Below are positions 3,196 through 20,773 of a stretch of DNA of 33,704 nucleotides, in pieces (position 1 is the stretch's first letter; every line of letters begins with the position of its first letter). The stretch is from Aneurinibacillus terranovensis DSM 18919 (lineage in GTDB: Bacteria; Bacillota; Bacilli; Aneurinibacillales; Aneurinibacillaceae). A model generated the notes under the pieces. It saw nothing but the letters and a program-made list of their open reading frames with translations, was not told the DNA's origin and did not search any database. Position numbers and translations under genes: made by a program. The DNA lies in NCBI RefSeq assembly GCF_000430625.1, contig NZ_AUMJ01000062.1, positions 1-33,704 on the forward strand. The letters run 5' to 3'.

Positions 3196-3218
3196 CATAA
3201 TTAGACAAAAAAATTACT

Positions 3219-3782
3219 TTAAAGAGAAAATGACTCCAAGGCTTTATTTACCATATCATCATTAATTCCTATATATCTTAAGGTAACAGATGGGCTGGAA
3301 TGCCCAAAAATATATTGCAGCATCGCTACGTCCTTAAAACGTTGATAAAAATGATATCCGAATGTTTTACGTAATGTATGAGTTCCTATAGACCCTTCAA
3401 CACTACACGCTTTTGCGGCATCATTGATAATTTGCCAAGCCTGCACACGATGTATCGGTTTTCCTCCTTTTCTGGATGGGAATAAATAATCTGAATCAGC
3501 AAAGTTTTTTGTGTATTTTTCGATTTCTTTCCTTAGCGCGTCCGTAATGATGATTTTCCTGGCATTTCCCGTCTTTTTCTCTCTTACCTTCAAATGCTTT
3601 GTGTATTTCACATCCAAAACCCTTAAAGGAAGGATGTCACTTATTCTCAGACCGGAATTAATCCCGAAAACAAAAAGAAAATAATCGCGATAAGATTGTG
3701 CCAGCAAATAATTTTTTATCTCTTGAATTTTGTCCAAATCACGTATGGGCTCAACTGCATTTGCTCCATGTCTTGCTGTCAT
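3219..3782 (-). CDS. Small tyrosine recombinase (catalytic domain only)
   Basis: A 187-residue site-specific recombinase made almost entirely of the catalytic domain. The active-site set is complete: R46 (GLRISD), K69 or K70 (beta-hairpin REKKTGN), H135 and R138 (THTLRKT), H161 (GHSS) and nucleophile Y170 (LRYIG). The N-terminal core-binding domain of classic integrases is nearly absent, as in small phage- or plasmid-encoded recombinases. The start ATG is preceded on its strand by GAGGTG at 3791-3796. Matched inverted 20-bp sites flank it closely, which points to an invertase role on its own locus. An integrase of a minimal mobile element is the alternative, but the sites are not direct repeats. 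Confidence 0.92.
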   Translation of the reverse strand: MTARHGANAVEPIRDLDKIQEIKNYLLAQSYRDYFLFVFGINSGLRISDILPLRVLDVKYTKHLKVREKKTGNARKIIITDALRKEIEKYTKNFADSDYLFPSRKGGKPIHRVQAWQIINDAAKACSVEGSIGTHTLRKTFGYHFYQRFKDVAMLQYIFGHSSPSVTLRYIGINDDMVNKALESFSL

Positions 3783-3923
3783 TATTTAGAACACCTCATT
3801 ATCTAGATTCAATACAATGTATAATTCAATATGTTAGATTAAATTTCCTTTTTTATATGGAGTAATACCTAAAAACCCTTATTATCAAGCCTTTTTTTAT
3901 GCTTTAAAATTTTCATAAAACAT
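3783..3923. other. A/T-rich region upstream of the recombinase
   Basis: It should contain the leftward recombinase promoter; TTGATA at about 3889-3894 on the minus strand is one -35 candidate, with only a weak -10. On the plus strand a TATAAT (3820-3825) has no recognisable -35. No clear rightward promoter was found to feed the gene at 3964. Confidence 0.35.
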
Positions 3924-3943
3924 AACAAAATGGATATTTTGTT
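3924..3943 (-). repeat. Right recombination-site candidate of the inversion switch
   Basis: The sequence aacaaaatggatattttgtt is the exact reverse complement of 3101-3120, with centre GGAT at 3932-3935. Here the palindrome extends to 13-bp arms (AACATAACAAAAT and its complement). It lies 20 bp upstream of the HD-GYP start codon, within what would be the 5' leader. The AT-rich palindrome could also act as an operator. Confidence 0.7.
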
Positions 3944-3951
3944 ATGTTCAA

Positions 3952-3958
3952 GGGGGGG
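3952..3958 (+). promoter_or_regulatory. Run of seven G forming the Shine-Dalgarno of the HD-GYP gene
   Basis: AGGGGGGG precedes the GTG start (3964) by 5 nt and is the only ribosome-binding candidate. Homopolymeric G runs can change length by slippage, which here would alter spacing or pairing with 16S rRNA. No length variation can be seen in one sequence. Confidence 0.45.
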
Positions 3959-3963
3959 TCAAA

Positions 3964-4577
3964 GTGGAGGAGATTCATGTCAAATTTTTAACCCGATTAC
4001 TATCGAAGGATTTGGAAACATACCATCATTCCTTGCGCGTGGGAAATATGGCTAAAACCTTTGCTGATCATCTCAACTTTAGTGACGAACAAAAACAAAA
4101 ATTAATAATCGGATGCTGTCTTCATGACTTCGGAAAAATTTTGATTCCGAACGAAGTGTTAAATAAGGAAGGATCGTTGACCTCGAAGGAATGGGAGGTA
4201 ATAAAACTTCATTCCATCTATGGGAATAAGGTTGTTGGTGGTGGAAGGAGACATCGACGAAGAGATTATCAATGTTGTGCAGTTTCATCATGAGCGGATA
4301 GATGGGTTGGGATATCCGTTTGGATTGAAGGGTGATGAAATCCTGTTTTTGCCAAGATTGCTCAATCATCGACTCTTACGACAGCATGCTATCGAATCGA
4401 GCGTACCGCAAGGGAACCACTCCTTTAAAGGCAAGGGCAGAACTTTTGAAATGGTGTAATACACCATTTGATGAATTTTATGTTCAGGAGTTCTTAAATC
4501 TATCGGAACACTTGCTTGAAACGAGAGACAAAATGGAATGTGGAGTTCCGGAAGCTTTAGCACCTATTGCTATATAA
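3964..4577 (+). pseudogene. HD-GYP c-di-GMP phosphodiesterase-like gene with two frameshifts
   Basis: Three consecutive frames give one HD-GYP domain of about 200 residues. Frame 1 has YHHSLRVGNMA and the HD pair in LHDFGK, up to HSIYGNKVV. Frame 2 (from about 4225) has HHERIDGLGYP, the diagnostic HHExxDGxGYP motif. Frame 0 (from about 4372) has IIDSYDSMLSNRAYRKGTTP to the stop at 4577. The first shift falls in a GGT repeat (GTTGTTGGTGGTGG, near 4230), the second near 4365-4372. A third frame just after, ending at 4642, reads GEGDDLNLIRKRLHNLKH and may be the original tail. HD-GYP proteins hydrolyse cyclic di-GMP; the metal ligands are all still encoded, so decay is recent or the shifts are sequencing errors. 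It stands directly downstream of the inversion switch and upstream of the chemosensory genes. Start GTG chosen by the G-run RBS. Confidence 0.8.
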
Positions 4578-4716
4578 ACACATCAGGGGAGGGCGATGAT
4601 CTTAATCTCATCCGAAAACGTCTACATAATTTAAAACATTAAGGTTAATATTGATAGTCATTCTACGGTACGAAGGTTTTTTCCATAAACCGTAAAATCA
4701 AAAACGAGGACTACAT

Positions 4717-4944
4717 ATGCAACAGATTACTGATGAAGAATTATTAAAGTTATTAAAGAACAGTGAAAGCGAATTGTATACATTAGCCGAAATTCATAAA
4801 ACATTAATCCGAAGCAATATTCAGACGACCATAGATGAAATGCGCAAAAGGGTTTATTCATTATTTCGTGATGGGTATTTGGGAAATGAGCAAACGGGAG
4901 ATGGAGTGAATGTATACTACATCATTTATTGCCCGGAGCAATAA
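4717..4944 (+). CDS. Small protein of unknown function (winged-helix-like)
   Basis: 75 residues with ATG at 4717 and CGAGGA at 4705-4710 as RBS. The order is helix (TDEELLKLLKNS), helix (LYTLAEIHKTLI), helix (TTIDEMRKRVYSLFRDGYL), then beta-type residues (GVNVYYIIY). This order could form a small winged helix, so DNA or protein binding is possible. No family is recognised. It lies between the HD-GYP pseudogene and the receptor gene on the same strand and may be cotranscribed with them. Confidence 0.65.
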   Translation: MQQITDEELLKLLKNSESELYTLAEIHKTLIRSNIQTTIDEMRKRVYSLFRDGYLGNEQTGDGVNVYYIIYCPEQ

Positions 4945-5060
4945 TGTTTGCAAGCGATCCGAAGGCTTAACAAAAGAAACAATTTGAACCGAGTATCAAT
5001 GATTTGTCCAACAAAAGGGCTGGTACAACAGCAAATATAAAACCAGGAGGCTCTATATTT

Positions 5061-7001
5061 ATGGAAAAGAAACTTGCAAAACCGGCTGGCTCTCAAGTTC
5101 ATGGGGGCGCACAACTATCTGTTCAGGCTGATCAGATCGAAAAAAAGAGAGAGTTTGCAAGAAAGCAGGCTCTCGACAAGGTGAAGGCCAGAACATTGGC
5201 GAAACAGCAGCAGTTGGCTGAGAGGATCGCAACCGCGACCGAGCAGCTTGCCGCAGGGATCGAAGAAGCCAGCAGCGCGGCAGAAGAACTCAGCGCAAAC
5301 GCTGGACAAATTGCAAAAGGCGCAAATGAAGCTTCGTCGGCGGCAGAGGAATCAAGGGCTGCCATCAACCAGATCGAAAAGGCATCCGTTGTTGCGGACA
5401 AAAACGCTAAGGAATCGCTCCAGCTTGTGAATGGCGCAAAAGAACTCATAGAGAATACTTCCAACGACATAGAAATCCTGATCAAAGGCATACAGAATGC
5501 TGCAGATACTAACATAGAGTCGGTCAAACTGGTGGGAGAATTGGAAAAGCAGTCGGATGAAATCGGGAATATCGTACAGGCTGTAGTGAGAATAGCCGAT
5601 CAGACCAATCTATTGGCCTTAAATGCCGCGATCGAGGCTGCCAGGGCCGGCGAGCATGGTAGGGGATTTGCCGTGGTTGCCGACGAAGTCAGAAATCTTG
5701 CTGAAATATCGGAGAAATCTGCTAGAAATATCAGAGAATTGGTTGCTGAGATTCAAAACAATGTAAAAATCGTCGTCAGCGATATTGAAAACGCCGGTAA
5801 TGCCGCCAGTGAAGAGGTGGAAAAAGCAAAAAATACGACTGCAAATCTTGTGAAAATCAACGAGGAAATTGTTGTTGTACAGAAAGGAGTTGCCGAAATA
5901 TCCCAAAATGCTGTTGATGCGAACAAGGGGGCCTCTGAATTTCTCACCATTGTCGAACAAGTTGCAGCGGCAGCGGAACAGCAAAGCAGCGCCGCCGAGG
6001 AAGTGGAAAAATCCTTACAGATGCAAAATAAAGCTTTCGATGAGTTGAATGCGGCCGCGTCCGAATTGGCCCAGATGGCTGAAGATCTGAAGGTATCTAC
6101 AGATGCCCAAAAGTCATCCGAGGCCCTTGCCGCCGCAGCTCAGGAATTGGCCGCCAACGTGGAGGAGGCAAATTCCACATCCAGTGAAATTATGAAGGCG
6201 ATGGAGCAGATTGCCACGGGTGCAGAGATGCAAGCGGAACTCGCTGAAAAGTCTTTGCTGGTTGCAGAAAAACTGGTTGTGGCGTCAAAACAAATGAATG
6301 AAAGGGCATCGGTCTCCACAGAAAAAGTGGCGGAGTTGCAAAAAATAATTGAGAGCAATAAGATCTCGGTGGACGATATGATTACCGGAATTTCAGCTTC
6401 GGCTGATGCAAGTTTGGTTGCCGCCAGAAACATCAAAAATCTGGAAGAAACCATTCGTAAAATTGATAAGATTGTCGATACGATTGTCAATGTGACCATT
6501 CAGACCAATATGCTGGCGGTAAACGGGTCTATCGAAGCGGCCAGGGCAGGAGAGTTTGGAAGAGGATTTTCTGTAGTCGCCGGTGACATACGGACCCTTG
6601 CCAATGAATCAGCAGAGAATACGGATAAAATCAAGGACCTGGTAAGAGGAATCCAAAGTCAGATACAGAGAGTTGCGGCGGACATTGATGTTTCCAGCAG
6701 GACTGCGTTTGCCGAAGTGGAGAAGGTTAAGAAGGTGACTCATAACCTGAATGTGGTTATGGAAAGTATGATGGATATTAATGTGGCAACAAAAGAAGTG
6801 GAAAAAGGTTCGGAAGAATCGCTGGTTGCTTTGGAACAGGCAAGAAAAGGCGTGGAACAGATTGCAACCGCCGCCCAAGAGGCCAACAGGGCTACGCAGG
6901 AGGCATCAAATGCAGCAACCGAACAGGCAAAAGGAATGCAGGAACTGGCCGAAGCGATTGAGGAAATATCCGGACTTGCCGATGAACTTCAAAATCTATA
7001 A
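5061..7001 (+). CDS. Cytoplasmic methyl-accepting protein with two signalling tips
   Basis: 646 residues with no membrane segment, HAMP, PAS or other sensor domain; after a basic N-terminus (1-55) it is coiled coil throughout. It has two complete MCP signalling tips: residues 178-215 ([20 protein letters not shown] then [18 protein letters not shown]) and 478-515 ([20 protein letters not shown] then [17 protein letters not shown]). Matching residues, such as R195/R495, are exactly 300 apart. Tip 2 differs at usually fixed places (D to I, NAA to NGS, VAD to VAG). Pairs such as EE in [13 protein letters not shown] look like methylation sites for the CheR and CheB encoded downstream. ATG 5061 was chosen because AGGAGG (5045-5050) precedes it by 10 nt; an upstream in-frame start at 5004 has no RBS. 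It likely scaffolds CheA and the CheW proteins in a cytoplasmic array. The stimulus is unknown. Confidence 0.95.
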
Positions 7002-7019
7002 CGGGTGGGAGGAGATGTT

Positions 7020-8510
7020 GTGGTATCTTCCGAAAAAAATGCAAGTATTAACGAGCGCCAGTTGGTTACCTTCCATCTTGGAGATGATGAATTCGGGGCG
7101 GACATTATGAATGTGAAAGAAATCGTGAGAGTTCCGGAAATCACCAGGGTGCCGAATGCTTTGAATTACATCGAGGGAGCCTGCAATTTGAGAGGCAATG
7201 TCTTGCCCATCATCGATGGAAGAGCCAGATTCAATATGGTAAAGAAAGAAAAGGAGGAGAATAGCAGGGTATTGGTCATTGATGTAAACGGGAAAGCAAC
7301 CGGAGTCATTGTGGACAGAGTGTCCGAAGTCATTCGTGTGAGTACTTCAGACATTGAGGACCCACCGAAGATCGTAAAAAATATGGATGCAGACTATTTG
7401 AACGGGATCGTCAAGCTGGACAACGGGGACCGGTTGATCATGTTTCTGGACATTGTCAAAGTGGTTCATGGCGATGGAGGGGCAGAGCCTCAAACGAGCG
7501 AAAAAGACGCCATGGGCGAATCCTTTTTGAAGAGCAGTGACAATTCATCGCTGGATGCTGCAGGCGATGAGCAACTAGTATCGTTTTTGCTCGGTAAAGA
7601 AGAGTACGCGATCGGGATCATGCAGGTCAAAGAAATTATACGCGTGCCTGAAATTATGAAGGTTCCAAATTGCGAAGCCTATGTGGACGGTGTTGTATCC
7701 ATCAGGAAAAACCTTCTTCCTATCATTAATTTGAGAAGATATTTTGGTATGGAGTCCAAGGGGATCACCGACCATACAAGAATTCTGGTTGTAGATATGG
7801 GAGGCTTTACGGCTGGAATGATCGTGGACAAGGTATCCGAGGTTTTAAGGGTGCCTGCCGGCATGATTCAGTCCCCTCCAAGATTTTCTGCACAAAGAGG
7901 GGAGCAGCTTAAGGGAGTGGCCAAGCTGGACAACGGCAAACGTCTGATCATGATGCTTGAGCCATCAAAAATTATATCTGCCGATGCGTACAGGATGATC
8001 AGCGACCTAAAAGGTGCATCACAGGAGAACGACGACGAGATGAAAAGCATAGAAAGACAGATGATGGAAGAGGAACAGTTGGTTGCCTTCAAAATTGACA
8101 ATGAAGAATACGGGATAAAAATTAAGGAAGTGCAGGAAATCAATCGAATGACCGAAGTAACCAAAATACCCCGGGCTCCCCATTACATTGACGGTATCGT
8201 GAATTTGCGTGGGAACATCATTCCTGTGCTCGATTTAAGAAAGTTTTTCGGACTTTCTGAAAAAGGAATAACTGATGCTGCGAGGATCATCATTGTGGAC
8301 TCGGCCGGCGCAAAAACCGGAATCATTGTGGATTCGGTATCGGAAGTACTGAGATTTGAAAAGGCATTGATTGAGTCGCCGCCGGAACTATTGAGCAACG
8401 GTATTGACAGCAGTTATGTAGAGGGTGTAGGCAAACTCAATGAAGGGAAAAGGATGGTATTGATCCTTCGCCTAAATAAAGTACTGGATTTTGAGAAGAT
8501 TTCAGCGTAA
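7020..8510 (+). CDS. Triple-CheW scaffold protein (first copy)
   Basis: 496 residues holding three CheW domains in series, at about 14-150, 184-320 and 352-492. Each has the CheW pattern of an opening QLVxF strand, a VPxxxxYxxG turn, and a closing LDNGKRLIM-like strand. The receptor/CheA-contact motif is NLRG in domain 1, SIRK in domain 2 (Gly lost) and NLRG in domain 3. A normal CheW has one domain of about 150 residues coupling receptor to CheA; three in one chain could bridge several complexes. GTG at 7020 follows GGAGGA (7008-7013) by 6 nt; an in-frame GTG at 7005 overlaps the RBS and is less likely. It lies 18 nt after the receptor gene, so one operon. Confidence 0.93.
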   Translation: MVSSEKNASINERQLVTFHLGDDEFGADIMNVKEIVRVPEITRVPNALNYIEGACNLRGNVLPIIDGRARFNMVKKEKEENSRVLVIDVNGKATGVIVDRVSEVIRVSTSDIEDPPKIVKNMDADYLNGIVKLDNGDRLIMFLDIVKVVHGDGGAEPQTSEKDAMGESFLKSSDNSSLDAAGDEQLVSFLLGKEEYAIGIMQVKEIIRVPEIMKVPNCEAYVDGVVSIRKNLLPIINLRRYFGMESKGITDHTRILVVDMGGFTAGMIVDKVSEVLRVPAGMIQSPPRFSAQRGEQLKGVAKLDNGKRLIMMLEPSKIISADAYRMISDLKGASQENDDEMKSIERQMMEEEQLVAFKIDNEEYGIKIKEVQEINRMTEVTKIPRAPHYIDGIVNLRGNIIPVLDLRKFFGLSEKGITDAARIIIVDSAGAKTGIIVDSVSEVLRFEKALIESPPELLSNGIDSSYVEGVGKLNEGKRMVLILRLNKVLDFEKISA

Positions 8511-8591
8511 TGTTACTTGTTATGTCTCAGGCAAGTTGTTTTTTGTCTTGGGGTCATTCCTATGTTTCCAGTATTCCTGCAGGTGATTGTT

Positions 8592-9677
8592 ATGAAACAC
8601 AGGATAAAAGTTTTAATTGTAGATGATTCCGCTTTGATGAGAAAAGCATTGCGGGAAATTATCATAACGGATGAGGCACTTGATTTAGTGGGCGTGGCCA
8701 GGGACGGAAAGGATGCAATCGAAAAAGTCAAGGAATTAAAACCGGATGTTATCACCATGGACATCAATATGCCCGAAATGGACGGATTAACGTCCATGCG
8801 GTATATACTGGACGATCACCCCGAAATACCGGTTATCATCATCAGTTCATTGACGCAGGAGGGAGCATTTACCACCTTTGAGGCTTTGGCGCTGGGTGCC
8901 TTTGATTTTGTGGCCAAACCTTCCGGAACAGTGTCTTCGAACATACATGTTGTCGGAAGGGAGATTATCAAAAAGGTAAAACTCGCCTATAAATACGCCA
9001 GTCGAAGGAGTCTTAAGGCAAGGGTCAGAATCAAAAATTCCTTTTCCACAAAAAGGGCATCTGAAACTCTGGAAAAACCCGGCGCGGTTCGGACCAATGA
9101 ATTGTCCAAGGTCGTGGTGATTGGCGTATCCACGGGCGGGCCGGGAACATTGATGGAAGTTTTGCCCATGCTGCCATCTGATCTGAAGGCTGCACTGATC
9201 GTTGTGCAGCATATGCCGCCGACATTTACATCATCTTTTGCCAAAAGACTAGGGAAAGCTTGTCCTTTTCCGTTTAAAGAAGCGGAAGCCGGCGATGTGT
9301 TGGTCGACGGAAGAGGGTATCTGGCCCCCGGAGGATACCAGTTGCTTGTTCATAAGACTGGCCGAATGCTGCGGCTTTCGGCCAGCCCTGTGACGCAGTT
9401 TATGCCCAGTGTGAACGTGACCATGGAATCCGTGCTGAGGGCATATAGCGGAAAAAATGTAATAGGCGTCCTTATGACCGGTATGGGTGATGACGGAGCC
9501 GATTCCATGGTGAAAATTAAAGAGGCCGGAGGAGTAACCATTGCGGAAGATGAATCCACGGCGATTGTTTTTGGGATGCCAAGGGCGGCCATTGAAAGGG
9601 GAGGAGCTGAGATCGTCGTTCCTTCTTACCGGATAGCCGACGAAATCATCAAGGCTGTTTGTCGAATATGCGATTAA
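8592..9677 (+). CDS. cheB: CheB chemoreceptor methylesterase/deamidase
   Basis: 361 residues with the normal CheB layout. The N-terminal receiver has D11/D12 (VDDS), phospho-acceptor D57 (TMDINMP) and K109 (AKPSG). After a basic linker (about 137-172) comes the methylesterase domain with S180 (GVSTGG), H207 (VQHMPP) and D301 (GMGDDGA) as the triad. Phosphorylation by CheA activates CheB to remove methyl groups from receptors, here presumably the double-tip protein. ATG 8592 follows AGGTGA at 8581-8586; an upstream open extension to 8517 has hydrophobic residues foreign to CheB and no RBS. Complete and apparently functional. Confidence 0.95.
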   Translation: MKHRIKVLIVDDSALMRKALREIIITDEALDLVGVARDGKDAIEKVKELKPDVITMDINMPEMDGLTSMRYILDDHPEIPVIIISSLTQEGAFTTFEALALGAFDFVAKPSGTVSSNIHVVGREIIKKVKLAYKYASRRSLKARVRIKNSFSTKRASETLEKPGAVRTNELSKVVVIGVSTGGPGTLMEVLPMLPSDLKAALIVVQHMPPTFTSSFAKRLGKACPFPFKEAEAGDVLVDGRGYLAPGGYQLLVHKTGRMLRLSASPVTQFMPSVNVTMESVLRAYSGKNVIGVLMTGMGDDGADSMVKIKEAGGVTIAEDESTAIVFGMPRAAIERGGAEIVVPSYRIADEIIKAVCRICD

Positions 9678-9735
9678 GGAATACGACGGCATAATCATAA
9701 AACTGCCACTGGCAGCTTCGTGAGGGCGGTAGAAT

Positions 9736-11571
9736 ATGGATCTATTGTATGTTACATATATTGAGGAAACGGAAGAATTGCTTCAGAAAGCTGAAGAATG
9801 CCTGATCAGGTTGGAGGCTGAGTACTCAACTGACGATATTAACGGTTTATTCAGAATGTTCCATTCCATCAAGGGTTCTTCTCAAATGATCGGATATGAG
9901 GACATAGGCAACCTGACGCATAAGATGGAAGATATGCTTGATATTGTCCGAAAGGGTCGAATTGACCTTGACGGTAAAATCCTGCAATTGTGTTTTCGCG
10001 GGTTGGATCATGTCAAAAGATTGTTTGAGTCAAAAAAAAACATGAATGCCTTCGGCGACAACGCAGATTTCATTCAAACTTCCTTGGTATTGGAAAGAGA
10101 AATTGACCAAATTCTGAAAGCCAATTCTGAAACGGGAAGTGACAGGAAGGAAACGTCCCCGGGAGACGGAATAATCACTGCCTTAAAGGAAAGTAAGCAA
10201 ACAGGAAAAAATCGGTACTGCATCTATATTTCTTTCAGCGATGATATTCCAATGATTTCCCCCGTTCTGTTTATGATTTTTAACAATATCAAAGACATTG
10301 GTTCGCTCGTGTATACCAATGTATCTGACGGGGATATCTATGAAGCGTCTGTAGACCTCAATATTTCCGCTCCGTTCATGATCATGGATTCGGATTTAGA
10401 GGCAGCCGAACTGTATACGTATTTTGATCTGATGTATGTGAAAAAGATAGCCATTTCTGACATCTCAGAGCATCAAATGTTGAAGCAAGCTATACCGCAT
10501 GATCGGGACAGCCGCAGGTTTTTTGAAAATTTTTTTCAAGAGTACCCGAAACTGTATCCGGTCCTGTTTCATCATCCCAACTCCTTCGATAAAGCCGTTT
10601 ATACTGAATTTATCCATGAGTGGTATAAAAAAATTTTTGAAGTGGTAAGTCCTATTTTGTTTCATGCAACAGGACAAAGTCTGAAACAGGAAATAGAAAC
10701 ATTTTATGATTGGTGTCTACATGCGATTGGCGGAACATTGGCGCCGGATTTCCCCTGCAAAAAGTACCTTGAACTATTCGAGATGGTTTACGGTTATGTT
10801 CGGGGGCGATTTTTTTATAAAATTTTCAAAGCAAAAAATGACCATTTCATAGACGGTCTTGCCGAATTTATTGAACGAATGGACAAATCAAGCACACGCG
10901 AATTTTTACTTGACTTGAGCGGGCTCGAAATGATCCATGAACATGAATTGAAAAGCTTGATCGAGTTGAAAAGGCGTCTGAGTGACATGGGGATTGTCGT
11001 GAGTGTCATTATTGATAACCCTTCGCGAAGAAGACTTATCAATATATTTGATTCGATTCGAACGATTGAAAAGTTCGAGTGGTTCGAAACGGAAGTGGAC
11101 GCAGCGCTGGGGGAAAACATTACTTCAATGGTAAATTTATTGGAGGATGATGAAATGAGCGGATACCGCATCATGATTTTGGATGATGAAACGGAGATAT
11201 TGGATCTACTTAAAAAAAATTTCCAATCGGCTGGTTATACACAAATCGAGACATACATTGACCCTGCAACTGCTCTGGAAATGTTTAAAAAGAGGAAGTA
11301 TCACATCGTTCTTGCGGATATTAACATGCAGGAGATCGACGGTATAGAATTTCTAAATAAGGTTAAGGATTATGATCCCATGACGCAAGTGATTATCATG
11401 ACAGGCTGTTCGACCATGGACAGGATATTGACTTGCCTGGAGCTTGGCGCGAATGATTATATTTTAAAACCTTTCAAAAGCTACGATTATGTATTGGAAG
11501 TCGTGGATGATTCGATAAAAAAATTGGAAAGATGGAGAGAAGCGATTAAAGGGATGATTGCAACCTCCTGA
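9736..11571 (+). CDS. HPt - middle region - STAS - receiver protein, no kinase domain
   Basis: 611 residues. An HPt domain (about 1-110) has phospho-accepting H43 in MFHSIKGSSQMIG. A middle region (about 158-245) opens with an alpha/beta segment (YCIYISFSDDIPMI) that recalls CheA P2. A helical part (260-385) is unrecognised. A STAS-like domain (about 387-455) starts FLLDLSGLEMIHEHELKSLI; the usual DSSG with its phosphorylatable Ser is IHEHE. A receiver (about 477-600) has D483/D484, acceptor D528 (LADINM), T556 and K578 (LKPF). There is no dimerisation or ATPase domain, so it cannot autophosphorylate. It likely passes phosphate between CheA and a receiver, or is itself the output. It is the only receiver in the cluster besides CheB. 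No described protein with this order is known to me. Confidence 0.88.
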   Translation: MDLLYVTYIEETEELLQKAEECLIRLEAEYSTDDINGLFRMFHSIKGSSQMIGYEDIGNLTHKMEDMLDIVRKGRIDLDGKILQLCFRGLDHVKRLFESKKNMNAFGDNADFIQTSLVLEREIDQILKANSETGSDRKETSPGDGIITALKESKQTGKNRYCIYISFSDDIPMISPVLFMIFNNIKDIGSLVYTNVSDGDIYEASVDLNISAPFMIMDSDLEAAELYTYFDLMYVKKIAISDISEHQMLKQAIPHDRDSRRFFENFFQEYPKLYPVLFHHPNSFDKAVYTEFIHEWYKKIFEVVSPILFHATGQSLKQEIETFYDWCLHAIGGTLAPDFPCKKYLELFEMVYGYVRGRFFYKIFKAKNDHFIDGLAEFIERMDKSSTREFLLDLSGLEMIHEHELKSLIELKRRLSDMGIVVSVIIDNPSRRRLINIFDSIRTIEKFEWFETEVDAALGENITSMVNLLEDDEMSGYRIMILDDETEILDLLKKNFQSAGYTQIETYIDPATALEMFKKRKYHIVLADINMQEIDGIEFLNKVKDYDPMTQVIIMTGCSTMDRILTCLELGANDYILKPFKSYDYVLEVVDDSIKKLERWREAIKGMIATS

Positions 11572-11587
11572 AGAAATCGGTGGTGAA

Positions 11588-12418
11588 ATGGTATTGTCCG
11601 ATGAGTTGTACGATAAATTCGTGAAAATGGTTTATAAAAAAACGGGCATCTTTTATGAACACAATAAAAAGTATTACGTCCAGAAAAGGATAGAAAAACG
11701 GGCGGAAATGATCGGAATGGGCAGTATTAACGATTATTACCGCATGTTGAAGTTTTCCAAAGATTCAACCGAATTTGATAGGTTGATCAATGATCTTACA
11801 ATAAATGAAACTTATTTTTTCCGGGACTATCCGCAGCTCAGGAATTTCGCTGAAAACGTGCTTCCCATTGTTGTAAGAGAAAAGAAAAAGAACAACGACA
11901 GAAATATCAAAATCTGGAGCGCCGCATGTTCCACAGGAGAGGAACCGTATACCTTATCCATCATTCTTCAGGAAATGCTTGATGAACCTGAAAAATGGAA
12001 TTTGCAAATTGTTGCCTCGGATATCAATACGGATGTGATTCACTCTGCAAAGATCGGTTTGTATGAATACAGGTCTGTCAGGGATGTGCCCCCTGAATAT
12101 TTGGAAAAGTACTTTACTAAAAAGCATGAATCGTATCAGGTGAACCCTAACGTTAAAAAGCTGGTCAAATTTATGAAAATCAATCTGGTGGATTTGGTCG
12201 CCGTAAGTGATATTACTGGCTGTGACTTTATATTTTGCAGAAACGTCCTCATCTACTTTGATGACGAATCAAGAAAGGCGGTTTTATCCGATTTTTACAG
12301 AGGCTTAAATCCCGGGGGCATCATTTTTTTGGGTCATTCCGAATCTGTCGGAAGGATCTCCTCGGCATATCACATGCAGAGGATTGGAGACACCATCGTC
12401 TATTTCAAACCGAAATGA
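11588..12418 (+). CDS. cheR: CheR chemoreceptor methyltransferase
   Basis: 276 residues. The N-terminal all-helical domain ends in LTINETYFFRD, the conserved CheR stretch. The SAM-binding site shows WSAACSTGEEPYTL, then ASDINTDVI, and the C-terminal core has FIFCRNVLIYFD and LGHSESV. CheR transfers methyl groups from S-adenosylmethionine to receptor glutamates, opposing CheB. ATG 11588 was chosen because GGTGGTG precedes it; an in-frame TTG at 11558 would overlap the upstream gene without an RBS. The gene lies 16 nt after the upstream stop. The double-tip receptor has no obvious CheR-tethering pentapeptide at its C-terminus. Confidence 0.95.
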   Translation: MVLSDELYDKFVKMVYKKTGIFYEHNKKYYVQKRIEKRAEMIGMGSINDYYRMLKFSKDSTEFDRLINDLTINETYFFRDYPQLRNFAENVLPIVVREKKKNNDRNIKIWSAACSTGEEPYTLSIILQEMLDEPEKWNLQIVASDINTDVIHSAKIGLYEYRSVRDVPPEYLEKYFTKKHESYQVNPNVKKLVKFMKINLVDLVAVSDITGCDFIFCRNVLIYFDDESRKAVLSDFYRGLNPGGIIFLGHSESVGRISSAYHMQRIGDTIVYFKPK

Positions 12419-12535
12419 TCAAACAAACGGGTTGCGTCTGCGTCAAGGATTTGCCATTCCGTTTTTGCTAGTGAAACCGTTGTGGGCATTGATGATGTGT
12501 GAGGCATTTTGGGGCGAATTGGGAGAGTGTGTAAT

Positions 12536-14776
12536 ATGAGCAGCTATACTATTGGTCTCGAGGATATTGAACTATTGAGGATGCTTCTGGATGAGTGGAA
12601 GGCAAGTCAGGAAGGTCTTGAAAAAAGGATTCTCCAGCTCGAGGTTTGCCCTGATGACCTTGAATTGGCAAATGACATATGTAATAGAATTCATAGTATC
12701 AAAAGAGGTTCCTCCTTTGCAGGGGTGGTTTTTTTAACAAAGCTCTGTCATGAAATTGAAACTGTACTGGATGCAATTCGAAAGAAAAACATTGAGGTTG
12801 ATGCCGATCTTATTGACCATGTTCTGACCAGCGTTGATTTATTAAGCAATCATATTTCCCGGTTAATCCAGAAAGTCCATGAGTATGATTCGTCAAATGA
12901 AGGTGCAGAACTGGTTATAGACTTTAATGAAGAAAAAAGAATAGATGAAATTGTTAGGAAAATAAATACACTCTTTGAAAAACACAAGCAGAAAAAAACA
13001 CAATTAATGAAGCGATTGGACGAGGATGAAGCCACAAAAATAGAGATATTGCAGTCCCAGGAGTTTGCAAGAAAATTATCCAAGGATGTAAAGGAACAGT
13101 TCCTGTTTGAGACCTATGAGCATATTGATAGAATCGAAAATCAGTGTTTGATCAAACTGGATAAAGAAGAAAACAATCGTAACGCCATCAACGAACTGTT
13201 CAGGGCTGTTCACAGCATCAAAGGCGGAACGGGCCTGTTTATCGCAACGGAGCCGAAAGAAAGTCCCGATTTTGCGGTCGTCAAGGATTTTTCCAATGTT
13301 GTGCATAGTTTTGAAAACCTGCTTGAACTTATTCGGGATCGGGAAATCCACTTTGATGAGAACATATCGTCCTTATGTTACGAGACCGTTGACTACCTGA
13401 AAGCTTCATTGGAATCGGTGGCGCTGGAAAACGGTGGGTCAATACCTAATGCAGAAATTTTGGGTAAAATTAGTCATTGCATATCATACATCAAGTCCTT
13501 GCCTGATCGGAAAATTGGTTTAGATTCGCAGCCCGAATCCGGAAAACAAGATCAGAGTCAGAATCAAATGCAGAAAGCCGCTTTGACGCAAAGTATGCAG
13601 AGTATAAGAGTAAGCCAGGACAAGCTTGACAAGATGATGAATATGATTTCCGAATTGCTGATAGCGAAAAATGCCTTTATGCATATTGCCTCCAAATTAA
13701 ATGCAGAGTATGAACTTCCGGAGATTTCAAAGGAAGTTAAAGGGGTAGGGTTTTCAATCAGTAGGATATCGGATGAATTACAAAATGCCATCATGTCCAT
13801 GAGAATGGTCGAAGTAAAGACGGTGTTTCAAAAAATGCCCCGAATCATTCGCGATATTTCACAAAGTACCGGCAAGAAGATGGAATTGATGATGGAAGGT
13901 GAAAGTACGGAGATTGACAAAACGATTGTCGAGCAGATCAGTGACCCGATTGTTCATTTGATTCGAAACGCGGCTGACCATGGTATTGAGAATCCGGAAG
14001 GCAGAAGGAGGAAGGGGAAAAGCGAAACAGGAAAGATTGTGTTGAGGGCATACCATAAAAACAAACATGTGTATATTGAGATTGAAGATGACGGAAAGGG
14101 AATGGATGTACAGGTTCTCAAAAAGAAAGCCATTGATAAAGGCTTTATCACCATGGAAGATGCGGAAAAAATGACGAAAGGCCAGTTGACCAATCTGATC
14201 TTTTTGCCTGGATTCAGTACGGCGAGTCAAATTACTGAAGTCTCAGGCCGCGGGGTCGGAATGGATATTGTGAAGAGCAATATCGAGAAAATCAATGGCA
14301 ACATTATGATCGAGAGCGAAGTTGATAAGGGTACAAAGATGGTCATACAGCTTCCGCTTACGCTTGCCGTTTCAAGGGGGCTGACGGTCAACGTTTCAAA
14401 CGAGACTTATATTATTCCGATCGATTACATTTCCGAGACCGTAAAGATCAATACGAGCGATATTCATAAATACAATGAAAAGTATTTTGTACATCTTAGA
14501 GGGAATGTTATTGGAATTGAATGGCTGAGCAAGCTGTTATTGCTGGGCGAAAGAAACATGAATCATGAAGAATTAAATACAGTCATCATTTCCAATGGAT
14601 CGGAAAAATTCGGCATTATCGTGGATAAGCTAAAAAATGAACAGGAATTTGTCATGAAAACGTTGGATGGGCACCTGGCGGGTATACTCGGTATTTCCGG
14701 CTCCACCTTGCTGGGCAACGGACAGGTTGTATTAATAGTGAATCCTGTAGATATTATACAAATGGCGAAAAAATAG
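12536..14776 (+). CDS. cheA: CheA histidine kinase with two HPt domains
   Basis: 746 residues. HPt 1 (about 1-115) has H53 in IHSIKRGSS, where Arg replaces the usual Gly after HSIK. HPt 2 (about 185-325) has H226 in AVHSIKGGTG. The dimerisation domain (about 355-425), ATPase domain (about 430-605; N-box HLIRNAADHGIE, DDGKGMD, GRGVGMD) and CheW-like P5 domain (about 610-746) follow. No P2 domain is visible between HPt 2 and P3, and there is no fused receiver. It should autophosphorylate and pass phosphate to CheB and to the HPt-STAS-receiver protein. ATG 12536 follows GGGAG (12521-12525). A 117-nt gap before it holds no gene. Confidence 0.95.
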   Translation: MSSYTIGLEDIELLRMLLDEWKASQEGLEKRILQLEVCPDDLELANDICNRIHSIKRGSSFAGVVFLTKLCHEIETVLDAIRKKNIEVDADLIDHVLTSVDLLSNHISRLIQKVHEYDSSNEGAELVIDFNEEKRIDEIVRKINTLFEKHKQKKTQLMKRLDEDEATKIEILQSQEFARKLSKDVKEQFLFETYEHIDRIENQCLIKLDKEENNRNAINELFRAVHSIKGGTGLFIATEPKESPDFAVVKDFSNVVHSFENLLELIRDREIHFDENISSLCYETVDYLKASLESVALENGGSIPNAEILGKISHCISYIKSLPDRKIGLDSQPESGKQDQSQNQMQKAALTQSMQSIRVSQDKLDKMMNMISELLIAKNAFMHIASKLNAEYELPEISKEVKGVGFSISRISDELQNAIMSMRMVEVKTVFQKMPRIIRDISQSTGKKMELMMEGESTEIDKTIVEQISDPIVHLIRNAADHGIENPEGRRRKGKSETGKIVLRAYHKNKHVYIEIEDDGKGMDVQVLKKKAIDKGFITMEDAEKMTKGQLTNLIFLPGFSTASQITEVSGRGVGMDIVKSNIEKINGNIMIESEVDKGTKMVIQLPLTLAVSRGLTVNVSNETYIIPIDYISETVKINTSDIHKYNEKYFVHLRGNVIGIEWLSKLLLLGERNMNHEELNTVIISNGSEKFGIIVDKLKNEQEFVMKTLDGHLAGILGISGSTLLGNGQVVLIVNPVDIIQMAKK

Positions 14777-14860
14777 AGTAATGGCGATAGGTAATGTTAG
14801 AAGCGCGTTGGCCCAGAAGAAAAATAAAGCGGATTTGCAATCTTTTTGCGGGAGGGCAAT

Positions 14861-15634
14861 ATGAATGAAAAAATGGTAAAGTATGCCGTTTTTAATAACA
14901 AGGGAGGAGTAGGTAAGAGCACGATTGCTGTACATATTGCTCACGGTCTTGCTCTTGACGGATATAAGGTATTATTGGTTGATATGGACGGGCAGAACGA
15001 TGCAAGTCTTTTTCTTGGTTTTACTTTGCAAGATTATAAAAAAACATTTTACAATCTCATTGACGAAAGAAGAAATACCAAGCTTGAGGAATGCCTTATC
15101 CATGCCAGGGATAATCTGGATTTATTGCCTTCCGGTTCAATTGACCTGATGAATACGGAGTTGTTCAGGGTGTCGAGAATTGACCTGGTCTTGGAAGAAA
15201 AACTGAACGATCTTAAATCTTTTGGCTACGATTTCGTGATTATTGACTGCGGGCCTCAGCGAAGCAAGGTGAATGATGCAGTCTTGTGTTATGTCGATGG
15301 AATCATCATACCCGTCCAGCTGCAAGCTGCATCCGTTAGAGCTGTAGGGAACATTTACGAATATCTTTCGGATATGAGGCTGAATTCCGGTATGATAAAG
15401 CTGATTGTACCCAACATGTTTGATCAGAGAACCAACGACTCGAAAGAAAACTTAAAGTTAATGAAGGAATTTATTGCGGACGATCATCTACTGACCGAAC
15501 CCATACATCGCAGGGTAAAGATTGCAGAGGCCGGAAAACTGGGAAAAACTGTTTTTGAATATGATGATGAATCTGCTCGGCAGTTTCTGAGCATCGTTAA
15601 AAAGGTGATAAGCAGATATGCCCAGGAAGAGTGA
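14861..15634 (+). CDS. ParA/MinD-type ATPase of the chemosensory cluster
   Basis: 257 residues with the deviant Walker A of ParA proteins, NNKGGVGKST (K14 and K19), the switch I region VDMDGQNDAS (D41) and Walker B-like VIIDCGP (D129). The conserved start closely resembles Soj/ParA. Known relatives inside chemotaxis loci (ParC of Vibrio, PpfA of Rhodobacter) position or segregate receptor arrays; PpfA acts on a cytoplasmic array using the nucleoid. That is the best inference here, because the only receptor is cytoplasmic and no ParB or centromere-like repeat is seen. ATG 14861 follows GGAGGG (14851-14856). Its last 17 nt overlap the next gene, implying translational coupling. Confidence 0.92.
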   Translation: MNEKMVKYAVFNNKGGVGKSTIAVHIAHGLALDGYKVLLVDMDGQNDASLFLGFTLQDYKKTFYNLIDERRNTKLEECLIHARDNLDLLPSGSIDLMNTELFRVSRIDLVLEEKLNDLKSFGYDFVIIDCGPQRSKVNDAVLCYVDGIIIPVQLQAASVRAVGNIYEYLSDMRLNSGMIKLIVPNMFDQRTNDSKENLKLMKEFIADDHLLTEPIHRRVKIAEAGKLGKTVFEYDDESARQFLSIVKKVISRYAQEE

Positions 15635-17459
15635 TCGTAAAAAAGACCAAACGAATTTGGAAAAGATGAAAAATGAAATGATACGAAAGAAGGAGAAGGC
15701 GGAAAAAGCATCGGTTGCCGGGCAGCATGACGAGTCAACGGTTATTCTCCAAGGAGAAGTTAGAGAGGGAACACAGTCATCCCGTCTGAAAGAAGCTCTT
15801 TTAGTGCGGCAGGTGCATGCAAGTGAAAACGAGTGGTCGGGTGAAGCAGTCCGAGATGACGCGTTTGATGTTCAAAGTTGCATCCGAGAAGAGGATGGAC
15901 AAAGCAACGATATAAACAAGCCAAACATCGGAGTGATGACGTTAACTGAGGGAGATTTTCGCAACCCGGAAAATGATGAAGTCTTACATAACGATGAGAT
16001 TGATAATCTTGATCTTGTTGTTTTCTGGGTGGGAGCCGAACAGTTTGCGTTTAGGCTGGTGAATGTAAAAGAAATCATAAAGGTTGATAAAATAAAGAGG
16101 GTTCCCCATGCCCCTGCAAATGTCGCAGGGTTGTGCAGCCTAAGGGGCAGCATCCTGCCAGTTGTCGACATTCGCAGGTGTTTACATATGCCGGAGAAGG
16201 AATACAATGATGACAGCAGGATCATCGTTGCCGACATTCATGGCAGGAATGTAGGGATTATAACCGATGGGATTTCAGAAGTGATCAGCATAAAAGCCTC
16301 ATCCATTTTGGAGCCGCCAGCTAATATAAAGCATAATCAAAGCAGGAATATTATCGGTATTGTATTGGGAGACAATGGAAGAAGTATCATTATGGTCTTA
16401 GATGTGGAGAACGTTGTGAAATTTGAGCAGATGGAAAAGGATTTTTTAAGCGACAAGACATCGGATCGTGATGGGTCTTTTTCTCCAGCATCACATCATG
16501 GGGATGAAGCAGAGTTGGTCATTTTCTACATCAACGATGAGCAATATGCCCTTGATGTTAGGAATGTTAAAGAAATCCTGCGATATGTTGAGCTTTTGAA
16601 AGTTCCCAATTCTCCATATTATGTGGAAGGTGTTGTGTCTGTAAGGAACAATCTTCTTGCGGTAATCAATCTGGCAAAACTTTTTGGCGCAGAACATCAC
16701 GGCGTTTATGAAACTACCAGAATTATTGTTGCGGATGCCGGCGATTTCTCCTATGGAGTTATTGTCGATAAAGTGTCGGAAGTGGCACGTGTTCCAAGAA
16801 AACTTTTTTACAAACCTTTCGACATAGTCAAAAATGCTGAAAAGCAGTTTATACGTGAATTTGCCAATTTAAGCAATGGGAAACAGGTTGTTATGATCCT
16901 TGATCCGCGCAAATTAGCATCCCTGAACAATTTACGCGCGATTAACTTCGATCATCTGACATGCGGCGCAAGCGGAAACGTTATGATTAACGAAGAAATG
17001 CCGGAGAATCAATTTTTAGATCAGGAGCAGATTGTAGCTTTTAAAGTTGATAATGAAGAATATGGTATAAGAATCAATTATGTTTGTGAAGTTAATAGAA
17101 TGGATGAAATTTACAGTTTCCCAGGAGCTCCTGATTTCATTGATGGAATGGTAAACCTAAGGGGAGATATCATACCTGTTTTAAATTTGAGAGCATTTTT
17201 TGGAAAATCCTTAACAAACAAGAGTGCCCTTTCCATGCTTTTGGTTGTTGAATACAAAAAACAACGGATAGGTTTAATGATTGATTCTGTTACAGAAGTC
17301 GTCAGGGTGAATAAGGATCTTCTTGAAGAGACTACCCGGGCGTTAGAAGCCGAAAACAAAAAGAAATTTATCCATCATATTGGAAAATTGAACGAAGGGA
17401 AAAGGCCCATTCTGATTATTGATCTGACGGCTGTCCTTGATTTTGTCATCGGACAATAG
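15618..17459 (+). CDS. Triple-CheW protein with charged N-terminal extension (second copy)
   Basis: 613 residues. Residues 1-130 are a charged, probably disordered extension (first 30 strongly basic: PRKSDRKKDQ and RKKEKAEK). Three CheW domains follow at about 131-270, 298-436 and 469-612. The contact motifs are SLRG, SVRN and NLRG, so the middle domain again lacks the Gly as in the first triple-CheW protein. Domain 3 of both proteins shares DNEEYGI and EXNRM, and both end in LNEGKR and VLDF, so the triple unit was duplicated as a whole. The ATG lies inside the end of parA with AAGGTG as RBS. By analogy with ParP, a CheW-like partner of ParC, the extension may link the array to the ATPase. 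That is inference from position and charge only. Confidence 0.92.
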   Translation: MPRKSDRKKDQTNLEKMKNEMIRKKEKAEKASVAGQHDESTVILQGEVREGTQSSRLKEALLVRQVHASENEWSGEAVRDDAFDVQSCIREEDGQSNDINKPNIGVMTLTEGDFRNPENDEVLHNDEIDNLDLVVFWVGAEQFAFRLVNVKEIIKVDKIKRVPHAPANVAGLCSLRGSILPVVDIRRCLHMPEKEYNDDSRIIVADIHGRNVGIITDGISEVISIKASSILEPPANIKHNQSRNIIGIVLGDNGRSIIMVLDVENVVKFEQMEKDFLSDKTSDRDGSFSPASHHGDEAELVIFYINDEQYALDVRNVKEILRYVELLKVPNSPYYVEGVVSVRNNLLAVINLAKLFGAEHHGVYETTRIIVADAGDFSYGVIVDKVSEVARVPRKLFYKPFDIVKNAEKQFIREFANLSNGKQVVMILDPRKLASLNNLRAINFDHLTCGASGNVMINEEMPENQFLDQEQIVAFKVDNEEYGIRINYVCEVNRMDEIYSFPGAPDFIDGMVNLRGDIIPVLNLRAFFGKSLTNKSALSMLLVVEYKKQRIGLMIDSVTEVVRVNKDLLEETTRALEAENKKKFIHHIGKLNEGKRPILIIDLTAVLDFVIGQ

Positions 17460-17537
17460 CAAGGGAAATTGCTTATTTTAAAATGAAGCCTAACTGAGAC
17501 TGGATAGCAATTGCGGGGAAAGATTCAAAGCGGTTTC

Positions 17538-17594
17538 TGCCATAGAAGAGATGATGGCATCGTAGCAATCACTTGCTTAATTGGTAATGATTGC
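17538..17594 (+). promoter_or_regulatory. Two hairpins in the leader of the 42-residue ORF
   Basis: TGCCAT (17538-17543) pairs with ATGGCA (17554-17559), and GCAATCA (17565-17571) pairs with TGATTGC (17588-17594). They lie between the second triple-CheW gene and the small ORF. No known riboswitch consensus was matched. No T-tract follows, so termination is unlikely. Confidence 0.3.
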
Positions 17595-17641
17595 AAGTAA
17601 CGTGTGTATGTTTATGATTTGATAGCAAGGAGGCTCTAAAT

Positions 17642-17770
17642 ATGGGAGAGGAAAAGGAAATTCTCACACCGGAGGAAATCGAGGAAATCATCCGCCAATT
17701 GGAAGTTGATTGTCCAGAGTTAGTAAATCCCAGACAAACCGAAAAATCAGATAAGGCGGGAGCAGAGTAA
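17642..17770 (+). CDS. Acidic 42-residue protein of unknown function
   Basis: ATG at 17642 with a strong AAGGAGG RBS 8 nt upstream. The product is very acidic and helical at first (MGEEKEILTPEEIEEIIRQL), then EVDCPELVNP and a polar tail. Its RBS context (AGGAGGCTCTAAAT then ATGG) closely resembles that of the double-tip receptor gene (AGGAGGCTCTATATTT then ATGG). The gene closes the chemosensory cluster on the same strand. No family is recognised; it may be a small adaptor or may be unrelated. Confidence 0.6.
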   Translation: MGEEKEILTPEEIEEIIRQLEVDCPELVNPRQTEKSDKAGAE

Positions 17771-17790
17771 TTGAACTGTAAAACATTCAC

Positions 17791-17830: not shown

Positions 17831-17926
17831 GAATAACACCACGTTTGAACAATAATAAGTCAATATGAGCAGTATGTATGATTTGTGGATAGTATGTATT
17901 GAAACGGCGCAAAGATTTTATCGTAA

Positions 17927-18443
17927 TGGCGAGCACAAAAAAGGGGCAGATCCATCGAGGAGTACCTGTCAGGATTAGCTCGTCAGGATCAAGACGAAAT
18001 GCCTATGGGCCAGAAAAAGGATGATTCAGATCCGCCTCCGTCGCCATCCACAGGATCCGCTTCAAAGACGACACGACGACAAGAAGAGGCGGTCCATGAA
18101 GACTTTCACGGCAAGAAGTTTTCTAATGCGACACACCGAAGTGTAACAGATGCGGACGCCCGGTTATATAAGAAGAGCAAAGGACAGGAAGCCTATTTAT
18201 GTTATTTGGTACACAACGTCATCGATGTGACTTCCGGTGTCATTTTGTCGACGCAGGTCAGTATGGCTTCGGGGTACGGCGGAACGGGAAATCAGCCTTC
18301 AGCAACAACTATTGAATTCAAAGATGATGTTGAGATGCAACGTTTCAAACTATGCAACGAGCAAAAAGAAGACTGATAATGAAAAACTGGATAGAGTTAG
18401 GGAAGGAAGAAGAAAGCACAAACGTGCTGAAGAAATGAACTAG
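17927..18443 (+). pseudogene. IS1182-family transposase remnant
   Basis: Open stretches without a proper start read SIEEYLSGLARQDQDEM, FSNATHRSVTDADARLYKKS and AYLCYLVHNVIDVTS, typical of the middle of IS1182-type DDE transposases. A frameshift near 18265-18280 changes frame inside ASGTAEREISLQQ. After a large internal deletion, the C-terminal RVREGRRKHKRAEEMN ends at 18441-18443. The catalytic core is incomplete, so the element is dead. Confidence 0.75.
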
Positions 18444-19069: not shown

Positions 19070-20617
19070 ATGAAGAAAAAGTTATTGAACGTAGTAACCA
19101 CAGCTGCCATTTGTTCCGTATTTGGATTTTCCTCTATGGCTGATGCTGCAGCACCGGCGGCGAAAAACCCATCAATTGACACCACAACACCTATAAAACA
19201 TGTTGTTGTTATTTTTGGGGAAAACGTTTCTTTCGACCACTACTTCGGTACATATCCACGCGCCGCTAATCCAAAAGGCGAGCCGGTATTTACAGCTAAA
19301 CCTCACACTCCTGCTGTTAACGGATTAACAAAGGAATTGTTGAGCAAGAACCCAAATGCATTTAACCCTAAACGCCTGGATCGTTCGCAGGCTGTAACCG
19401 ATGACATGGACCACGAGTATACGGCTGAGCAAAAAGCGTTTAATGGCGGGAAAATGGACAAATTCGTTGAAAATACTTCGGGCGGTAAGGATAAATCCAT
19501 GGTTATGAATTACTATGATGGAAATACCGTTACTGGTCTCTGGAATTATGCGCAAAACTATGCAATGAGCGATAACTCCTTTAACACAACGTTCGGACCT
19601 TCCACACCAGGTGCCCTAAACCTTATCTCCGGACAAACCCACGGAGCTACAGGTTATCTAAAAGGAGAAAAGAAAGGCGATATCAAAGATAATGTGGTGA
19701 ATGGTACCGTAATCGGTGACCCGGATCCGTTTTACGACAAAGCTTCAAATGCTACCCGCGCCCAGGTTGCTATGGACGGAAAAAACGTTGGTGACCTGTT
19801 AAACGCAAAGAACATTACCTGGGGCTGGTTCCAGGGCGGATTCCGTGATACATCTGCTAAACACAACAATATCGCCGGAGGCTCATCAATCGACTACAAT
19901 CCGCACCACGAGCCGTTCCAGTATTATAAATCAACATCCAATCCGAACCATCTGCCGCCTACTTCAACGGCTATGATTGGACATACTGATCAGGCTAACC
20001 ATCAGTATGATATGCAGGATTTCTGGAGTGCAGCTGATTCCCATAACCTGCCGGCAGTGAGCTATCTAAAAGCTCCGAATTACCAGGATGGCCATGCAGG
20101 GTATTCGGATCCGCTCGATGAACAGCACTTTATTGTTGACACGATTAACCACCTGCAGAAGCTCCCTGAGTGGAAAGATACCGCTGTTATCTTGGCTTAT
20201 GATGACTCTGACGGCTGGTATGACCATGTGATGCATACCCCGCTGGTTAACGGTTCAAATGACCCGGAAACCGATGCATTATATGGTCAGGGCAATGCCG
20301 GTGAACCGAAACTTGGCAGCTATTTAAACCGTGCCGGTTACGGCCCGCGCCTTCCGCTGCTGGTTGTATCTCCGTATGCAAAAACCAATTTTGTAGACCA
20401 TACGCTAACCGACCAGTCCTCTATTCTTCGCTTCATCGAAGATAACTGGAACCTGGGACGTATCGGTGACCACTCTTTTGATGCGGTTGCGGGCAGTATC
20501 GAGAATATGTTTGACTTTAAACACCCGTCTGCTAAAAAGCTGTTCCTTGATCCGATAACAGGGCAGCCTGTTCAGCCAAGCAAAAAACTAGTTCAAGACA
20601 AGAAGAACGAAAACTAG
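19070..20617 (+). CDS. Secreted phospholipase C / acid phosphatase (AcpA-PlcC family)
   Basis: 515 residues. A Sec signal peptide (basic MKKK, hydrophobic core, likely cleavage after ADA at residue 26) exports it. Family motifs are E51 in ENVSFDHYFG, the FGPSTPGALN segment (about 176-184) near the catalytic residue, HHEPFQYY, LDEQHF and DDSDGWYDHV. These belong to the alkaline-phosphatase-like superfamily group of phosphatidylcholine-hydrolysing enzymes and AcpA acid phosphatases. It probably releases phosphate from phospholipids or other esters outside the cell. RBS GAGGAG lies 7-12 nt before the ATG. It stands alone between two 260-bp repeats with its own promoter and terminator. A frameshifted 3' tail follows. 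The substrate is not decided by sequence. Confidence 0.92.
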   Translation: MKKKLLNVVTTAAICSVFGFSSMADAAAPAAKNPSIDTTTPIKHVVVIFGENVSFDHYFGTYPRAANPKGEPVFTAKPHTPAVNGLTKELLSKNPNAFNPKRLDRSQAVTDDMDHEYTAEQKAFNGGKMDKFVENTSGGKDKSMVMNYYDGNTVTGLWNYAQNYAMSDNSFNTTFGPSTPGALNLISGQTHGATGYLKGEKKGDIKDNVVNGTVIGDPDPFYDKASNATRAQVAMDGKNVGDLLNAKNITWGWFQGGFRDTSAKHNNIAGGSSIDYNPHHEPFQYYKSTSNPNHLPPTSTAMIGHTDQANHQYDMQDFWSAADSHNLPAVSYLKAPNYQDGHAGYSDPLDEQHFIVDTINHLQKLPEWKDTAVILAYDDSDGWYDHVMHTPLVNGSNDPETDALYGQGNAGEPKLGSYLNRAGYGPRLPLLVVSPYAKTNFVDHTLTDQSSILRFIEDNWNLGRIGDHSFDAVAGSIENMFDFKHPSAKKLFLDPITGQPVQPSKKLVQDKKNEN

Positions 20618-20706: not shown

Positions 20707-20734
20707 AACCGATAATCAAATAGCAAGTTAATGA

Positions 20735-20771: not shown

Positions 20772-20773
20772 AT

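Follow-up and report, generated by a model that had tools for sequence, protein, structure and literature searches.

We analysed a 33,704-nucleotide stretch of Aneurinibacillus terranovensis DSM 18919 DNA (the window), which is the entire contig NZ_AUMJ01000062.1 (G000:C44) of a 4.25-Mb genome and carries a chemosensory gene cluster with its own ParA-type ATPase (positions 4717–17770, + strand). A first-pass annotation had listed a soluble receptor, two triple-CheW proteins, CheA, CheB, CheR, an HPt-STAS-receiver protein, ParA and a 42-residue open reading frame (ORF) there, and every one of these was found on that strand with the domains it had been given; overlooked within the same conserved block were a 75-residue ORF, a decayed HD-GYP-type gene and a small tyrosine recombinase. 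The cluster is composed of a signalling core of class F9 and of an add-on, ParA and a second, tailed triple-CheW adaptor that we designate CheW3b, and this add-on, shared with few other loci, is what is unusual here. All 10 cluster ORFs are open. The likely start codons lie 3′ of the longest-ORF starts for the receptor (5061), CheB (8592), CheR (11588), CheA (12536) and ParA (14861).

The gene order, including the 75- and 42-residue ORFs, recurs in Paenibacillus naphthalenovorans (L021) and Gordoniibacillus kamchatkensis (L022), and largely in an Eubacteriales metagenome-assembled genome (MAG; L023) and a P. cisolokensis fragment (L024), which argues that the gene set is not a chance assembly. 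Most core proteins are 79–88% identical to those of P. naphthalenovorans. ParA and CheW3b define a sub-family of F9 loci comprising the window, P. naphthalenovorans, G. kamchatkensis, the Eubacteriales MAG and a locus (L053) of genome G206; in the P. cisolokensis fragment this part of the cluster falls outside the contig. The 75-residue ORF, the 42-residue ORF and the HPt-STAS(-REC) gene are common to the window and its first two relatives. The 75-residue ORF (4717–4944), the cluster's first gene, is 59–91% identical in the first three relatives and is predicted to encode a small winged-helix protein (AlphaFold2 predicted local distance difference test score (pLDDT) of 81; Foldseek matched Fur/Zur winged helices weakly). 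The acidic 42-residue ORF (17642–17770), the last of the block, has its own ribosome-binding site and is 70–74% identical in P. naphthalenovorans and G. kamchatkensis. Rfam and tRNA scans of the window gave no match, and promoters and terminators were predicted no more often than expected by chance.

The F9 core and its likely output

The receptor (5061–7001) is a DosM-type protein with two tandem signalling domains, visible as two MCPsignal stretches. Residues 211 and 511, numbered in the 665-residue ORF starting at 5004, mark its signalling tips, and it has no transmembrane helix or hydrophobic segment; it had been correctly described as soluble, and its two tips had been missed. It is 80–88% identical to its relatives. 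Downstream lie CheW3a (7005–8510), the canonical F9 triple-CheW adaptor; CheB (8592–9677), a REC-methylesterase identified by Pfam and its catalytic motifs; CheR (11588–12418; Pfam CheR E 7e-58); and CheA (12536–14776), in which Pfam recognised two HPt, kinase and CheW domains and detected no P2. The catalytic motifs are intact (HPt histidines H62 and H235 and the N-box of CheA, and the motifs of CheB and CheR). The combination of a double-signalling-domain receptor with a triple-CheW protein is the signature of class F9 according to a study of Campylobacterota (PMC9321776). A domain search found three CheW domains in both CheW proteins of the window, which also has the F9 order dosM-cheW3-cheB-cheR-cheA. 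Because DosM with CheW3 is the published F9 signature, the core is not new: judged by its sequence, it is the known F9 cytoplasmic array type represented by Vibrio cholerae cluster I.

Trees and neighbourhoods place the window in the same class. Triple-CheW matches were obtained in 41 of the 398 genomes of a phylum sample, and the order dosM-cheW3-cheB-(short gene)-cheR-REC-cheA recurs around them; named plasmids of Sphaerotilus and Azospirillum have the same order, with a HEAT-repeat protein encoded by the short gene. The CheW3a gene also adjoins DosM in approximately 30 other Bacillota loci, and the CheW3a tree puts the window among F9 loci. When judged against CheAs from DosM-CheW3 neighbourhoods and from two named plasmid loci, rather than a full class reference set, the window CheA belonged to a 100/100 group of five inside the F9-locus CheAs, and the host's C2 and C7 CheAs, together with CheAs of the host family, were placed elsewhere. 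CheA therefore groups apart from the CheA of the host flagellar cluster, the point on which the first-pass annotation had staked its case for a module outside the Bacillus flagellar class. Its further proposal, that each architecture is unusual and the combination new, found no support: a double-tip receptor and triple-CheW proteins are hallmarks of F9 (PMC9321776, PMC7534058), and ParA in a che operon is as such not new, because ParA genes occur in the che operons of 77 of 206 species (PMC2829493). The F9 core had been characterised already; the ParA/CheW3b add-on had not. Of 2781 species, about 2% have full F9 sets, and horizontal transfers have been numerous (PMC9321776).

The V. cholerae F9 array consists of two CheA/triple-CheW layers bridged by DosM, and V. 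cholerae DosM appears to require a second receptor (PMC7534058). This apparent requirement makes it doubtful that the module is self-contained, as had been supposed, and the host has a soluble globin-type receptor elsewhere. This HemAT-like receptor (L108; G000:C29:48957–49433) is a candidate second receptor for the F9 array; apart from DosM, no further full-length receptor of the host was found to be clearly soluble, with two loci that could not be judged.

The gene between cheB and cheR encodes an HPt–P2-like–STAS–REC phosphorelay protein (9736–11571; HPt E 7e-15, REC E 1e-24) with an intact HPt histidine, H43. Its Pfam P2 match is below the cut-off. A fold model (pLDDT 58) has a helical HPt, a ferredoxin-like region (159–242) and a STAS-like region (361–450); STAS was assigned by pattern and by this model, whose low confidence makes the P2-like domain tentative. 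The receiver is fused in the window and is a separate gene in the first four relatives, that is to say, the reported lack of a standalone CheY holds for the window locus and fails for its relatives. The HPt-STAS gene is apparently broken in G. kamchatkensis and P. cisolokensis, where a real split and an assembly error are indistinguishable. The region in the Eubacteriales MAG carries additional signalling genes (a separate STAS, an RsbW-like ATPase, a sensor kinase, and HEAT-repeat, CheX-like and extra receiver genes), and for this reason the window version looks like a reduced set. The HPt–P2-like–STAS–REC protein is likely the output of the module. An F9 locus of genome G339 (L048) has genes for STAS, two RsbW-like ATPases, a sensor kinase, HPt and HEAT-repeat proteins beside DosM, a partner-switching type of output.

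The module could instead be an ordinary F9 array that acts on flagellar motility or chemotaxis via the host CheY pool, with ParA and CheW3b merely stabilising the array. Flagella are found in 97% of F9 species (PMC9321776), the host has flagellar genes, two other che clusters and a stand-alone CheY-like receiver, and array formation is also promoted by ParP and ParC (PMC5706961, PMC10241942). However, the module has its own receiver protein, and none of its products was recognised as interacting with the motor; V. cholerae strains lacking the F9 cheA show no phenotype under standard conditions (PMC7534058), and a chemotaxis role of System I is unproven (PMC11940527). We regard this reading as unlikely; the module may serve motility or, as the first-pass annotation proposed, a function outside it.

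ParA and the N-terminal tail of CheW3b

The ParA ATPase (14861–15634) contains the deviant Walker A motif KGGVGKST with the signature lysine, and the Walker A′ and B motifs VDMDGQ and VIIDCGPQ. Alignment to Thermus thermophilus Soj (1WCV) revealed the Soj-like MxDxRT and IxRxVxxxEA..GK patterns; the basic Soj-like residues are conserved (MFDQR and RRVKIAEAGKLGK), and the arginines at these positions are kept in six of six ParA relatives. We take these positions to be nucleoid/DNA-binding residues. The closest other ParA of the host is only 31% identical. When searched for (E up to 1e-50), this branch turned up in 3 of the 398 phylum genomes and, among 398 genomes of the class, in the host alone. 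In one of the three, G373, the ParA gene lies on a contig of 8.7 kb that also has a Rep3 initiator (L118). This ParA, 62% identical to that of the window, is the nearest non-chemosensory ParA, and it is followed by a 194-residue protein that begins with MAKKQNNINSNFEKLKKQMMQKREIAEKN and has a ribbon-helix-helix-like end, assigned by pattern; Pfam, PHROGs and PDB searches gave no firm identity for the C-terminal domain of this partner and at best weak hints, including a CopG-like repressor family. The ParAs of further mobile contigs (L119/L120 and L121) are 51–54% identical, and the small proteins encoded after them have a charged N-terminal part and an end like that of the L118 partner. Named plasmids yielded no close relative of this ParA type. 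In the ParA tree, the five chemosensory ParAs group together inside a 97/99 clade with the Rep3 plasmid contig and two mobile contigs, which assigns the window ParA to the mobile-element partition type.

The cheW3b gene (15618–17459) overlaps parA by 17 nucleotides and encodes three CheW domains. The CheW3b N-terminus is MPRKSDRKKDQTNLEKMKNEMIRKKEKAEK, which is followed by an acidic linker. This proposed ParA-stimulating tail (15618–15722) has a net charge of +6 over 35 residues and the linker −15; the tails across the set are lysine-rich, with a net charge of +6 to +9. Each of the five CheW3 proteins encoded next to this ParA type has the tail peptide, and the 35 others, whose first domain begins within 17 residues, lack it (Fisher p about 1e-6, calculated on related sequences). 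Compared with the five tails, the plasmid partner of L118 scored 53.8 on average, a value that no shuffled sequence (3000 shuffles) and no real N-terminus (675 tested, the best at 31.4) attained. The isolated tail peptide had no match on named plasmids. CheW3b proteins form a 100/100 clade with longer branches beside the CheW3a group, a topology by which CheW3b arose through CheW3 duplication and then diverged. Filing CheW3b in the ParP family was considered and rejected, as it has three full CheW domains that derive from the F9 CheW3 duplication, in place of a single AIF domain; by analogy of layout, it may nevertheless work like ParP.

ParA/MinD partners act, as shown or suggested, via a positively charged disordered N-terminus (PMC10241942). 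TlpT is an array component that links a cytoplasmic array to the ATPase PpfA by its N-terminus (PMC3964821), and ParP consists of an N-terminal ParC-binding part, a linker and a CheW-like array domain (PMC5706961). Because the CheW3b layout matches the partner logic of TlpT and ParP, CheW3b would tether the F9 array to nucleoid-bound ParA. We consider it probable that the F9 array is spread over the nucleoid by ParA via a plasmid-type partner peptide transferred to the array adaptor CheW3b. DosM, rod-shaped and with tips at both ends, would build a two-layer cytoplasmic array with CheW3a and CheA, as in V. cholerae; CheW3b would enter the base-plates via its CheW domains and expose the basic peptide on the long acidic linker, where it would bind and stimulate the neighbouring nucleoid-bound ParA. 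Cycles of binding, ATP hydrolysis and release would then space the arrays along the nucleoid, so that each daughter cell receives a share. Phosphate from CheA would pass to CheB for adaptation and to the receiver of the STAS-REC protein, directly or via HPt. ParA and the peptide would derive from a plasmid-type partition system in which an array-binding part replaced the DNA-binding part. The first-pass view of a cytoplasmic array with dedicated positioning is supported by a CheA outside the host flagellar class, a ParA with presumed nucleoid-binding residues and a CheW3b with a partner-type tail.

Several points weigh against this reading. The tail examples are only five, and all are related; the chemosensory ParA clade has a support of only 85/81; the partner tails of L119 and L121 scored no higher than shuffles, so that L118 is the single partner carrying the shared peptide; and the draft assembly of G206 has ParA and CheW3b and yielded no DosM in a search that detects DosM in controls.

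The charge of the tail also fits another tether, in which the basic peptide binds DNA directly, as does the FrzCD N-terminus, and so holds the array at the nucleoid, while ParA is secondary or unrelated. The tail is lysine-rich and strongly positive, and the positively charged tail of FrzCD binds the nucleoid directly (PMC5716589). However, the tail is confined to CheW3 proteins beside this ParA, whose gene overlaps cheW3b, and the L118 plasmid partner has the same peptide before a separate DNA-binding-like domain, which would make DNA binding by the peptide needless. We consider direct DNA binding improbable.

Between cheA and dosM, some F9 loci (L049, 12102–14962; L050; L052, 4148–6818) encode a different, unrelated ParA, an Hsp70-like protein and, beside this ParA, a small TPR protein whose first residues form a ParB-like motif (LGMGLxLLLSS). 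By their gene content, these loci would represent a second, independent ParA recruitment in F9.

Mobility of the block and its neighbours

DNA is conserved from about 3189 to 17786, with differing flanks. At the left end, a gene for a 187-residue tyrosine recombinase with only the catalytic domain (3219–3782, − strand; Pfam Phage_integrase E 3e-25) occupies the same upstream place in P. naphthalenovorans and G. kamchatkensis, at 82–87% DNA identity, and has a protein-level match in the Eubacteriales MAG. Next to it is the HD-GYP-type gene (3964–4577, + strand), which is broken in the window, its coding sequence being divided among three frames; the gene is intact in G. kamchatkensis (247-residue ORF with an HHE..DG.GYP motif, resembling a cyclic di-GMP phosphodiesterase) and was not seen in P. 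naphthalenovorans. No triple-CheW protein was found in the other examined genomes of the host's order. We read the module as a horizontally moved gene set. That the recombinase moves the block is a guess, because no convincing att-like direct repeats were found at the block ends.

An IS5/IS1182-type transposase fragment (17999–18376) lies directly to the right of the block, and a short piece to the left of this fragment (17899–17955) is shared with G. kamchatkensis. Farther to the right are ordinary neighbours (19070–29470), namely a phosphoesterase gene and an acetoin/2-oxoacid dehydrogenase operon, then a sigma-54 activator, and three consecutive tyrosine recombinase genes (30930–33613, − strand), as in recombinase-in-trio elements.

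The broken HD-GYP gene, the flanking transposase remnant and the lack of triple-CheW proteins in the examined genomes of the order could also mark a decaying, horizontally acquired island without present function. However, none of the ten cluster ORFs is interrupted, catalytic motifs are preserved in the enzymes, and identity to P. naphthalenovorans is still high for most core proteins; we consider decay very improbable. The positioning reading can be widened to a scenario to which we give an even chance: a swap of domains would have turned a plasmid-segregation pair (ParA and partner peptide) into one dedicated to segregating a soluble signalling array; the array, the positioning machine, the STAS-REC output and the recombinase would move horizontally as one cassette; and F9 systems would have recruited a ParA on at least two occasions, the second involving a TPR/Hsp70-type set.

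Comparison with known systems

The structure of F9 arrays is known, and for their inheritance by daughter cells the present variant provides a candidate machine together with a peptide of 35 residues. It points to a machine for DNA segregation that was co-opted to distribute a protein array, and a separate recruitment of ParA in L049, L050 and L052 would make ParA use a repeated solution for free-floating arrays.

One of the closest known systems is V. cholerae cluster I (DosM, triple CheW, CheA, CheB, CheR and CheYs), which has the same soluble double-signalling receptor, triple CheW and CheB, CheR, CheA order; the F9 class as a whole has the same sporadic distribution and horizontal transfer. 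Compared with V. cholerae F9, the window (i) adds ParA, the second, tailed triple-CheW protein, the HPt–P2-like–STAS–REC protein and the winged-helix ORF; (ii) has a CheA with two HPt domains; and (iii) has no second receptor or separate CheY in its cluster. Rhodobacter sphaeroides PpfA/TlpT likewise has a ParA-like ATPase in a che operon, a cytoplasmic array and a partner that is an array component acting via its N-terminus. In the window, by contrast, the partner is not a receptor but a CheW-type adaptor, ParA falls in a plasmid/phage-type branch and the array is of another class. In the Vibrio ParC/ParP system, the layout of ParP (an N-terminal ParC-binding part, a long linker and a CheW-like array-integrating domain) is that of CheW3b, although ParP has one CheW-like domain and serves polar membrane arrays, whereas CheW3b has three CheW domains and a soluble array; the tails are likened by layout, not by homology. 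A further close counterpart is the plasmid ParA of L118 with its small ribbon-helix-helix-like partner, encoded directly downstream and sharing the N-terminal peptide. The C-terminal part of the partner looks DNA-binding there and consists of three CheW domains in the window, with DNA as the cargo in the one case and, on the proposed reading, a protein array in the other. This pair offers a sequence-level picture of how ParA systems may change cargo.

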